Made by a program: the position numbers and the translations under genes
Assembly: GCF_002939885.1 (NCBI RefSeq)
Contig: NZ_MDED01000017.1
Span: forward strand, 1-64,000
DNA length: 64,000 nucleotides
Reading direction: 5' to 3'
From: Xanthomonas cucurbitae
Lineage (GTDB): Bacteria; Pseudomonadota; Gammaproteobacteria; Xanthomonadales; Xanthomonadaceae
The notes under the pieces: model-generated
Database searches by the model: none
Seen by the model: only the letters and a program-made list of their open reading frames with translations
What the model was told of the DNA's origin: nothing
Shown: one piece after another, positions 36,173-39,839 of the stretch
Numbering within the stretch: position 1 is the stretch's first letter
Layout: the number at the start of each line of letters is the position of its first letter

Positions 36173-36194
36173 TTGGCCCGTACCCTCACCCCAA

Positions 36195-36217
36195 CCCCTC
36201 TCCCGGCGGGAGAGGGG
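36195..36217. repeat. CCCCTCTCCC / GGGAGAGGGG palindrome
   Basis: A 10-bp perfect stem with a 3-nt GGC loop between dapD and the arsC-like gene, followed by CTTT. It is a member of the dispersed REP-like family also seen at 1780-1796 and, as a variant, at 43521-43541. It may act as a transcript-end or stability hairpin. Confidence 0.75.
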
Positions 36218-36247
36218 CTTTACAGGCCGATTTTCCAGGATACAAAG

Positions 36248-36715: not shown

Positions 36716-37849
36716 ATGACCAGCGACGTCCTGCAATTGACCTGCGACCTGATCGCGCGCGCGTCGGTGACTCCCGACGATGCCGGCTGCCAGGCACTGC
36801 TCGCCGAGCGCCTGGCGGCGGCAGGTTTTGCTTGCGAACACCTGCGCCTGGGCGAGGTCGACAATCTCTGGGCCACGCACGGCAGCGGTGCACCGGTGCT
36901 GGTACTGCTCGGCCACACCGACGTGGTGCCGCCAGGCCCGCGCGAGGCCTGGGCCAGCGATCCGTTTGTGCCACAGGTCCGCGATGGCGTGTTGTACGGG
37001 CGCGGCGCGGCCGACATGAAAGGCAGCGTGGCTGCGTTCGCCGTCGCCGCAGCGCAGTTCGTGGCCGAGTACCCGCAGCATCCCGGCACGCTGGCGATGC
37101 TGCTGACCTCCGATGAAGAGGGCGATGCCATCGACGGCGTGCGTCGCGTGGCCGAGTTGTTTCGCACACGCGGGCAGCGTATCGACTGGTGCATCACCGG
37201 CGAGCCCTCGTCCACCGAGCGGCTGGGCGATCTGTTGCGGGTGGGCCGGCGCGGCAGCCTGTCCGGCGCGCTGACGGTGCGTGGGGTGCAAGGCCATGTG
37301 GCGTACCCGCACAAGGCGCGCAATCCCATCCACCAGGCCGCTCCGGCGCTGGCCGAGCTGGTGGCGCGGCAGTGGGACACCGGCTTCGAACGTTTTCCGC
37401 CCACCAGCCTGCAACTGTCCAACATCCATGCCGGCACCGGTGCCAACAACGTGATCCCCGGCGAGCTGCAGGTCGCCTTCAATCTGCGCTATACCCCGCA
37501 TTGGGATGCGCCGCGGCTGGAAGCGGAAATCACTGCCATGCTCGATCGACACGGGCTGGACTACGCGCTGCGCTGGCGTCGCAGCGGCGAGCCGTTCTAT
37601 ACCCCGGAAGGCCGCCTGCGCAGCGTCGCGCGCGAGGTGTTGGGCCAGTTCGCCGGCGCACCGCCGGAAGAAAGTACCGGCGGCGGTACCTCCGATGCGC
37701 GCTTCATCGCACCGCTGGGCGCGCAGTGCATCGAGGTCGGCCCGGTCAATGCCAGCATCCATCAGGTCGACGAGCATGTGCGCGTGGCCGATCTGGAAGC
37801 CTTGCCGGCGCTGTATCGCAGGTTGGTCGAGCGGCTGCTGGTCGCGTGA
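36716..37849 (+). CDS. dapE: Succinyl-diaminopimelate desuccinylase
   Basis: 377 residues. A di-zinc M20-family enzyme that releases LL-DAP from N-succinyl-LL-DAP, two steps after DapD. The ligands are visible: [12 protein letters not shown] (His/Asp), [14 protein letters not shown] (Asp), [13 protein letters not shown] (catalytic Glu and ligand), ITGEPSS, and the C-terminal [13 protein letters not shown] His. The [16 protein letters not shown] dimerisation region is intact. The start has a GAGAGA-rich ribosome site. Confidence 0.97.
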
Positions 37850-37884
37850 CTGCCAGCGCGCCGCCGTCGTTGCCGCTGAAACAG

Positions 37885-37913
37885 TTGCGCCGGCGAAAAC
37901 GAACGGTTAGCGT
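37885..37913 (+). promoter_or_regulatory. Weak candidate promoter for the asnB leader
   Basis: TTGCGC - 17 nt - TAGCGT, three of six matches in each box. It would start transcription at about 37920, next to the leader ATG, giving a leaderless leader-peptide message. Only the spacing and position support it. Confidence 0.3.
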
Positions 37914-37920
37914 CGGCTGC

Positions 37921-38010
37921 ATGGTCATCCGCCTCGCCAACAGCAATAACGTCAACCGCACTGCCCTGCGCGCGAATAATCGTGCGCGGCCGATGCGGGT
38001 CTGCGACTAG
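37921..38010 (+). CDS. Asparagine-rich leader peptide of asnB
   Basis: 29 codons. Residues 6-20 read ANSNNVNRTALRANN, so six of 29 residues are Asn (positions 7, 9, 10, 12, 19 and 20), while the rest of the peptide is unremarkable. Immediately downstream are an intrinsic terminator and asnB, whose product makes Asn. This is the layout of a leader peptide in ribosome-mediated attenuation: scarcity of charged tRNA-Asn would stall the ribosome in the Asn cluster. No clear Shine-Dalgarno sequence precedes the ATG. Short and not recognised as a known protein; the role is inferred from the codons and RNA elements. Confidence 0.7.
   Translation: MVIRLANSNNVNRTALRANNRARPMRVCD
37987..38000 (+). promoter_or_regulatory. 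Antiterminator segment of the asnB attenuator
   Basis: CGGCCGATGCGGGT is perfectly complementary over 14 nt to the 5' arm region of the terminator (38044-38057) and shares CCGATGCGGGT with the 3' arm. It ends 7 nt before the leader stop codon, so a ribosome that finishes the leader would cover it and allow the terminator to form, while one stalled on the Asn codons leaves it free. Confidence 0.7.
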
Positions 38011-38040
38011 GCGAAGTACCACCAAACGCCCAGGAATCAG

Positions 38041-38072
38041 AAAACCCGCATCGGCCGATGCGGGTTTTTTTT
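38041..38072 (+). terminator. Attenuator terminator upstream of asnB
   Basis: A perfect inverted repeat (AAAACCCGCATCGG / CCGATGCGGGTTTT) with eight T residues at 38065-38072, 31 nt after the leader stop and 72 nt before asnB. A strong intrinsic terminator placed ahead of a gene, not after one. Confidence 0.92.
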
Positions 38073-38144
38073 ATGGGTGTCATTGTCGTGCAGCACGCTT
38101 GTCCACCGGCCACGCGATCCCACCGTTCCATCAGGAGTGTTTCC

Positions 38145-39839
38145 ATGTGTTCCATCTTCGGTATTTTCGGCCTGCAACCCGGCGACGATCTGCAGGCGCT
38201 GCGCCGGCAGGCGTTGGAATGTTCGCAGCGGCAGCGCCATCGCGGCCCGGACTGGAGCGGTGTCCATGTCGATGCCGGCGCGATCCTGGTGCATGAGCGC
38301 CTGGCCATCGTCGACCCGGCCGGTGGTTCGCAACCCTTGTTGTCCGCCGATGGGCAACTGGTGCTGGCGGTCAACGGTGAGATCTACAACCATCGCGAAC
38401 TCAAGGCCGAGCTGCTGCAGCCCTACGCCTTCCAGACCGGCTCCGATTGCGAGGTCATCAACGCGCTGTATCGCGAGGATGCGCCGGCCTCGTCGCTCAA
38501 TCGCCTCAACGGTATCTTCGCGTTCGCGCTGTGGGACAAGGCGGCCGGGCGGGTCATCATCGCGCGCGACCCTATCGGTGTGGTGCCGCTGTACTGGGGT
38601 CACGACCGCGAGGGGCGGTTGCGGGTGGCCTCCGAATTGAAGTCGCTGGTGGACGATTGCGCCGATGCGGCGCAGTTTCCGCCGGGCCATTGGTATGACA
38701 GTGCCACCGGTGCACTCAGCCGCTATTACGAGCGCGCCTGGCGCGACTATGGCGCAGTGGAAGGCGTGCAGGTGCCGTTGCAGGAACTGCGCGAAGCCTT
38801 CGAACGCGCGGTGCATCGCCAGCTGATGACCGACGTGCCGTATGGCGTGCTGCTCTCCGGCGGCCTGGATTCGTCGCTGGTTGCCGCCGTGGCGGCGCGC
38901 TACGCCCGCCATCGCGTCGAGGAGAACGACACCACCGAAGCTTGGTGGCCGCGGCTGCATTCGTTCGCGATTGGGCTGAAGGGTTCGCCGGATCTTGCCG
39001 CTGCCGAAGTGGCTGCCGCGGCGATCGGCACCGTGCATCACGGCTTTGAGTACAGCTTCGAAGAAGGGCTGGATGCGTTGCCGGAAGTGATCCGCCATAT
39101 CGAGACCTATGACGTCACCACCATTCGCGCATCCACCCCGATGTTCCTGCTGGCGCGGCGGATCAAGGCGATGGGCGTCAAGATGGTGTTGTCGGGCGAA
39201 GGCAGCGACGAAATCTTCGGCGGCTATCTGTACTTCCACAAGGCGCCCGACGCCCGCCAATTCCACGAGGAACTGGTGCGAAAGCTCGACGCGCTCAACA
39301 ACTACGATTGCTTGCGCGCCAACAAGTCGATGATGGCCTGGGGCGTGGAGCCGCGGGTGCCGTTTCTGGATCGCGAGTTCCTGGACGTGGCCATGCGCAT
39401 GGATGCCAGCCACAAGATGATCGACAAGACCAGCAGCGGCGCAATTCGGATGGAAAAAGGCGTGTTGCGCGAGGCGTTTGCCGGGTATCTGCCGGAATCG
39501 ATCCTGTGGCGGCAGAAGGAGCAATTCAGCGATGGCGTGGGGTATGGCTGGATCGATGGGCTCAAGGCGCATGCCGCCGCGCATGTGAGCGATCGCGAGC
39601 TGGCCGCGGCGGACCGGCGTTTTCCGGTCAACCCGCCGCAGACCAAGGAAGCGTATTTCTATCGCCGCCTGTTCGAGCAGTTCTTCCCCAGCCAGGCGGC
39701 AGCCGAAACGGTGCCGGGCGGCAAGTCGATTGCCTGCTCCTCGCCGACCGCCATCGCATGGGATGCGAGCTTTGCCGCCATGGCCGACCCTTCCGGCCGC
39801 GCCATCGCAGGGGTGCACGCGCAGGCGCTGGCTTCGTAA
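38145..39839 (+). CDS. asnB: Asparagine synthetase B (glutamine-hydrolysing)
   Basis: 564 residues, typical of AsnB. It converts Asp plus Gln and ATP to Asn. The N-terminal glutaminase domain begins MCSIFGIFG with the catalytic Cys2 and contains RHRGPDWSG and VNGEIYNHRELK. The synthetase domain has the PP-loop LLSGGLDSSLVAAV and LSGEGSDEIFGGYLY. AGGAG lies 9-13 nt upstream of the ATG. Preceded by an apparent transcription attenuator with an Asn-rich leader peptide, so expression is probably tuned to the tRNA-Asn charge. Confidence 0.96.
   Translation: MCSIFGIFGLQPGDDLQALRRQALECSQRQRHRGPDWSGVHVDAGAILVHERLAIVDPAGGSQPLLSADGQLVLAVNGEIYNHRELKAELLQPYAFQTGSDCEVINALYREDAPASSLNRLNGIFAFALWDKAAGRVIIARDPIGVVPLYWGHDREGRLRVASELKSLVDDCADAAQFPPGHWYDSATGALSRYYERAWRDYGAVEGVQVPLQELREAFERAVHRQLMTDVPYGVLLSGGLDSSLVAAVAARYARHRVEENDTTEAWWPRLHSFAIGLKGSPDLAAAEVAAAAIGTVHHGFEYSFEEGLDALPEVIRHIETYDVTTIRASTPMFLLARRIKAMGVKMVLSGEGSDEIFGGYLYFHKAPDARQFHEELVRKLDALNNYDCLRANKSMMAWGVEPRVPFLDREFLDVAMRMDASHKMIDKTSSGAIRMEKGVLREAFAGYLPESILWRQKEQFSDGVGYGWIDGLKAHAAAHVSDRELAAADRRFPVNPPQTKEAYFYRRLFEQFFPSQAAAETVPGGKSIACSSPTAIAWDASFAAMADPSGRAIAGVHAQALAS

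Follow-up and report, generated by a model that had tools for sequence, protein, structure and literature searches.

The trp, his, leu, ilv, thr and phe leaders are ribosome-mediated transcription attenuators of amino-acid operons. In some Firmicutes, Asn genes are controlled by a T-box riboswitch. Leaderless attenuators have been described for Sinorhizobium meliloti trpLE(G) (PMC7298713) and for leader peptides of Streptomyces lividans (PMC8079986). As far as the excerpts of these two papers go, their leaders sense Trp, Leu, Ile, Met, Thr or Ala, and the eight S. lividans leader peptides presented there include none for Asn (PMC8079986).

Here we analyzed a leader element in a 64,000-nucleotide stretch of Xanthomonas cucurbitae DNA (the window) that very probably is a trp-type ribosome-mediated transcription attenuator, sensing charged tRNA-Asn and controlling the asparagine synthase gene asnB. 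Like the attenuators of amino-acid operons, it combines a leader frame containing codons for the product of the regulated gene, a terminator in front of that gene, a competing antiterminator and a stop codon placed such that a ribosome halted there would cover the 5' arm of the antiterminator (segment 2). Unlike the known members of this group, the codons are for Asn and the gene is asnB. A T-box riboswitch likewise responds to the charging of tRNA by switching a terminator, whereas sensing at the asnB leader would be by translated codons. The start of the RNA at the leader AUG, which is predicted here, would be a feature common to the S. meliloti and S. lividans attenuators as they appear in the excerpts, with Asn taking the place of the amino acids sensed there.

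At the Rfam gathering score the only match in the window was a tRNA located elsewhere, with no leader family and no T-box riboswitch, which was rejected as a candidate for this reason. Matches to Leu_leader, Thr_leader, mir-35 and Xoo2 sRNA at a relaxed E-value were far below the respective cut-offs and were also rejected. Our searches of the open-access literature on asparagine or asnB attenuation, Xanthomonas leader peptides and leaderless transcripts yielded no Asn attenuator, a description in a subscription journal being possible, and none is mentioned in the excerpts of PMC2965389, PMC3771888, PMC7298713, PMC8079986, PMC2864571, PMC9413887 and PMC5864092. The initial annotation of this DNA, made from the sequence alone, had been aware of no Asn-codon attenuator of asparagine synthetase in this lineage, and neither the Rfam matches nor the open-access literature searched contains one. 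The mechanism is known in kind and its Asn specificity appears to be new.

If this reading is true, asparagine joins the list of amino acids to which translated leader frames respond, the locus provides a further leaderless example beyond Sinorhizobium and Streptomyces, and control of asnB is predicted across three families, which include plant-associated and opportunistic bacteria. The reading makes precise predictions that could be tested at low cost, namely a start of transcription at the AUG, an RNA ending near 38072 and induction when Asn is limiting.

The asnB locus and its leader element

In the window, dapE ends at 37849 and asnB starts at 38145, with the leader element between them on the forward strand. 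The leader peptide frame (37921..38010) opens with the ATG at 37921, comprises 29 codons (MVIRLANSNNVNRTALRANNRARPMRVCD) and closes with the stop TAG at 38008-38010. Its six Asn codons lie at 37939, 37945, 37948, 37954, 37975 and 37978 (span 37939..37980), the last two in or beside the loop of a possible pause-type hairpin (37968..37987) in which 37968-37975 would pair with 37980-37987. In alignment A1, 82.4% of the cells of this hairpin are paired, with weak covariation. The C-terminal codons of the leader form segment 2, the 5' arm of the antiterminator (37987..38000, CGGCCGATGCGGGT), which is the exact reverse complement of segment 3 (38044..38057). Segment 3 is common to the antiterminator, where it faces segment 2, and to the 5' arm of the terminator.

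The intrinsic terminator (38041..38072) consists of a stem of 38041-38052 with 38057-38068, which encloses the loop GGCC, and of eight T residues at 38065-38072. It is followed by AGGAG at 38133..38137, the ribosome binding site of asnB. For all of these parts (leader, Asn codons, complementary segment, terminator, AGGAG and asnB) the coordinates given in the initial annotation were confirmed by direct reading. The fold of 37900-38075 has a z score of -3.70. A consensus scan of 37700-38200 does not list the terminator, likely because the scan draws the stem out into the A/T flank.

The asnB gene (38145..39839) encodes asparagine synthase B, the glutamine-hydrolyzing enzyme, with a score of 859.8 bits against NF006949 (cut-off 499), and its product is 96% identical to AsnB of X. 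euroxanthea. The regulated gene is thus the maker of the sensed amino acid. In the host genome, asnB is the sole NF006949 match over the cut-off and no asnA was found, while AsnRS scores over its own cut-off in 31/31 genomes searched. Taken together, these observations indicate that free asparagine feeds tRNA-Asn and that asnB is the only synthase of free asparagine found. The contig of asnB also carries a second, distant asparagine-synthase-like gene (G000:C17:81817-83574), which is below the asnB cut-off.

We infer from these parts the following course of events. RNA polymerase would start at the first base of the leader AUG or directly beside it, and a ribosome would load at the leaderless 5' end of the RNA and translate the Asn-rich leader. 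When charged tRNA-Asn is scarce, the ribosome would stall at the Asn codons and leave at least 37991-38000 free; this stretch would pair with 38044-38053 once the latter has emerged, the terminator would not form and asnB would be transcribed. When Asn is plentiful, a ribosome reaching the stop at 38008 would cover segment 2, the hairpin of 38041-38068 would form and transcription would stop in the T-run, at about 38072. Ribosome-mediated attenuation had been put forward in the initial annotation, and this reading is supported by the Asn-rich orthologous leaders, by covariation, by the common register of the pairing and by the placement of the promoter-like sequence. To this we add a predicted leaderless start, the range of the element among bacterial families and the context of a sole synthase.

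Range of the leader and its predicted promoter

We collected 232 asnB upstream regions, made up of 80 named loci (the best 80 of 590 homologues), 30 loci from a family search, 22 usable loci from an order search and 100 fetched stretches; upstream stretches were taken from 90 of the 184 genomes with an asnB match. Sorting by hand from the listings of frames and hairpins, we found a short frame rich in Asn codons with a terminator behind it in 165/232 regions and no such arrangement in 67. Removal of 11 duplicates from the 165 left 154 non-redundant loci. One locus, L178, was left out, as its start lay elsewhere than expected.

The leader is present in 124/126 genome-search loci (some genomes counted twice) of three families of the Lysobacterales, f1, f2 and f12, of which f1 and f12 are named Lysobacteraceae and Rhodanobacteraceae after the named loci. 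It is absent in all 26 loci of other families of the order and before the homologues of Shewanella, Colwellia and Rheinheimera. Among the 67 regions without leader, 17 have a frame with at least three Asn in 20 codons, including four with four or five, and only in L045 does a hairpin follow the frame, the Asn codons there being scattered.

The two exceptions within the three families, L136 and L225, belong to the same family and have asnB genes of 79% identity, which is typical, and of 64%, which is more distant. A more distant asnB (64% identity) without Asn leader is also found in L067, which presumably comes from a near lineage. Three further loci, L018, L031 and L043, carry an asnB that is 74-82% identical to that of the window, and no leader, on contigs labeled Holophagales, Rhodococcus and Deltaproteobacteria; these may be misassigned contigs or, alternatively, may reflect transfer of the gene alone.

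A covariance model of 28 loci (R1), whose 12 base pairs are those of the terminator stem, gave one match above 150 bits in each of 25 same-genus genomes. In the seven of these 25 for which the places of the match and of asnB were compared, the match lies just upstream of asnB (7/7). Across 274 genomes of the class, 39 have a match at E<=0.001, with scores above 100 bits only in G000, G010 and G029 and the next at 40 bits. The weak matches are mostly to the terminator part alone. Nine of them cover the full model (G205, G175, G332, G328 and G198 and, class-wide, G422, G487, G379 and G544); the one in G198 is the asnB site of that genome. The one of the nine that was read, locus L246 of G422, is by eye a terminator without Asn leader. 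As R1 represents the Xanthomonas/Stenotrophomonas type and misses or weakly scores the types of other families (no match in G209), the class-wide search is no test of absence elsewhere.

The leader is preceded by a promoter-like sequence. In the window, the predicted -35 element TTGCGC (37885..37890) and the predicted -10 element TAGCGT (37908..37913) are separated by a spacer of 17 nt, and the latter ends 7 nt 5' of the ATG. Across loci, TTGC at -37 to -35 from the leader ATG occurs in 143/154 when the promoter aided the choice of the start, in 125/154 when the choice was unaided and at only 7/575 other ATGs. An A2/T6 hexamer starting at -13 or -12 occurs in 115/154 (aided) and 106/154 (unaided) compared with 23/575 other ATGs, and both elements are found together in 109/154 loci with the promoter-aided choice.

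The base at -1 of the leader ATG is C in 97% of loci (aided) or 142/154 (unaided), compared with 165/575 other ATGs. An SD-like motif stands before the leader in 29/154 loci versus 22.3 in shuffles, near the shuffled level, and before asnB in 139/154. This SD count, the promoter-like spacing and the C at -1 suggest that transcription probably starts with the leader AUG itself, its A (37921) being the first base, and gives a leaderless leader mRNA.

The hairpin might be a mere terminator of dapE, with the asnB promoter behind it and the Asn-rich frame untranslated. dapE does lie upstream here, intrinsic terminators are commonplace between genes, and a scan of 37700-38200 finds no sigma-70 consensus promoter before the leader either, the predicted leader promoter being below the scan threshold. 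However, dapE was found in the fetched flank of asnB in only 36/84 loci, and in the other 48 (including L010, L034 and L042, which have fewer than 900 bases upstream) the leader is kept, which argues that the element goes with asnB. The promoter-like sequence is moreover conserved before the leader, directly so in 117/154 loci, but this leader-type promoter is not enriched between the terminator and asnB (8/154 versus 5.5 in shuffles, a count that other promoter types would escape). A promoter downstream of 38072 had been named in the initial annotation as one observation that would speak against attenuation; the predicted leader-type promoter stands on the other side of the terminator. Since a dapE terminator would also leave the Asn content of the frame and the pairing of segment 2 unexplained, we regard this explanation as very improbable and take the element to be an attenuator of asnB.

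Asn codons of the leader

The upstream region of the host contains six Asn in 20 codons, whereas no frame in 40 dinucleotide shuffles exceeds three. Among the 154 non-redundant leaders, 149 have at least four Asn in 20 codons and all have at least three (range 3 to 9). Dinucleotide shuffles reach at least four in 104/6160 cases and at least three in 673/6160, a comparison that is not independent, Asn content having been one basis of the sorting; the presence of the leader in 124/126 loci of the three families therefore weighs more. On both counts Asn codons are enriched in the orthologous leaders, as the attenuator proposed for this locus had implied. The reverse strand reaches four Asn in 20 codons in 1/154 loci. 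Adjacent Asn codons are found in 150/154 leaders, and Asn makes up 19.4% of the 4960 residues, more than any other amino acid.

The leaders are otherwise highly variable in sequence and length, from 20 to 55 codons, and keep their Asn codons. Among nine Xanthomonas-type leaders, four of the host's six Asn positions are Asn in 9/9 and the other two in 8/9. This variability bears on a second explanation, in which leader and hairpins exist as described but serve mainly to make a short terminated leaderless RNA, or its peptide, with a target elsewhere, and attenuation of asnB comes second. The precedent is rnTrpL/peTrpL of S. meliloti, likewise a leaderless attenuator RNA, which according to the excerpted text acts in trans (PMC7298713). 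Against it, outside the Asn codons and the pairing segment the peptides vary so widely in sequence and length (20-55 aa) that no trans role is indicated, and we hold it to be highly unlikely that such a role is the main one. That the terminated leaderless RNA of about 150 nt, or the Asn/Arg/Ala-rich peptide, acts in trans in addition to attenuation, as a wider asparagine signal in Xanthomonas and relatives, seems unlikely as well.

We give almost no credence to the notion that the Asn codons are A/T-rich unpaired spacers in a switch that senses the general translation rate. In its favor, AAT (450 codons) is about as frequent as AAC (512) across the 154 loci despite the G+C-rich setting. Against it, the leaders contain few other A/T-rich codons (Lys 0.2%, Tyr 0.3%, Phe 1.7%, Ile 1.8%) and the controlled gene encodes Asn synthase. 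Attenuation in response to the charging of tRNA-Asn thus stays the preferred reading. The share of AAT is 29/62 Asn codons in the nine Xanthomonas-type leaders versus 7/25 in three genes of the window; with these small numbers, a preference of the leaders for the less used Asn codon is possible.

Antiterminator, terminator and ribosome geometry

The pairing of segments 2 and 3 has a register that is fixed relative to the leader stop: at offset -7, at least five of six Watson-Crick pairs can form in 104/154 loci, compared with 37 at the next best offset. Position by position, using for each locus the register of best pairing, segments 2 and 3 pair in 112 loci at position -1 (mean of shuffles 68), 143 at +2 (125), 101 at +5 (47), 78 at +6 (39) and 82 at +7 (47). 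At these five of the ten aligned positions the pairing exceeds that in any of 2000 shuffles. Positions 0, +1 and +4 vary too little to tell, and positions -2 and +3 show no excess of pairing over shuffles. Taken locus by locus, the helix of segments 2 and 3 beats shuffles at p<=0.05 in 79/154.

Position +2 distinguishes between the two hairpins. All ten loci with T in segment 3 have A in segment 2, where the leader encodes Gln in place of the Arg of relatives, compared with 1/144 of the loci with C in segment 3. Because nine of the ten keep the G of segment 4, the 3' arm of the terminator, this change from C-G to U-A fits the antiterminator better than the terminator.

The antiterminator further contains two inner pairings within 38001..38040, of 38001-38003 with 38038-38040 and of 38010-38013 with 38027-38030 (helices 3 and 5); in either helix there are two pairs in which both partners have changed. 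With these inner helices, which are not common to the terminator, 87.1% of antiterminator cells are paired in the 28-locus alignment, compared with 28.8-39.2% when the pairing is slid. In the same alignment, 18 cells are changed on both sides versus 7.6 in shuffles. Counted as pairs, six are changed on both sides versus 3.5, a number reached by 33/500 shuffles; these ignore relatedness, and the structure had been taken from the first row of the alignment. The initial annotation had proposed a search for compensatory changes in the competing segments, and segments 2 and 3 do covary across loci.

By sequence, the terminator is conserved, with 98.8% of the cells of its stem paired in alignment A1 and at least five T in 9 nt at the stem end in 145/154 loci. 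In the Lysobacter-like loci L023, L024, L135, L137 and L147 and in a few others, no segment 2 can be clearly made out at the register used elsewhere. In these five loci, the promoter-like sequence, the Asn-rich leader and the terminator are all present, and the antiterminator may be built differently.

In 73 of the 104 loci of common register, the core of segment 2 starts 11 or 14 nt past the last Asn codon, roughly at the front edge of the footprint that a ribosome stalled at that codon would have. In 19/104 the distance is only 5 nt, and the ribosome would have to stall at an Asn codon further upstream. In 88/154 loci the helix of segments 2 and 3 ends 7 or 8 nt 5' of the stop, such that a ribosome at the stop would cover segment 2.

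We also folded the leader RNAs of 150/154 loci (pairing score of at least 15) under ribosome masks. In the nascent RNA, pairing of segments 2 and 3 (P>0.5) is predicted in 113/150 with a ribosome stalled at the last Asn codon and in 116/150 without ribosome. In the full-length RNA, the terminator (P>0.5) is predicted in 143/150 with the stall mask, 150/150 with the stop mask and 144/150 without ribosome. As proof of the switch these models were discarded, since the stalled and ribosome-free states hardly differ and the terminator wins in at least 143/150 in each full-length state. They are compatible with the switch provided that folding is kinetic, and reveal no clear protector for an untranslated leader. 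In 142/150 folds of RNA that does not yet include segment 3, segment 2 pairs with upstream sequence.

Elsewhere in the window, at 36173-36230, a frame encoding LTPTPLPAGEG and a similar frame on the reverse strand lie between genes that by eye resemble dapD and an arsC relative; we take these frames to suggest a repeated palindromic element of the REP type.
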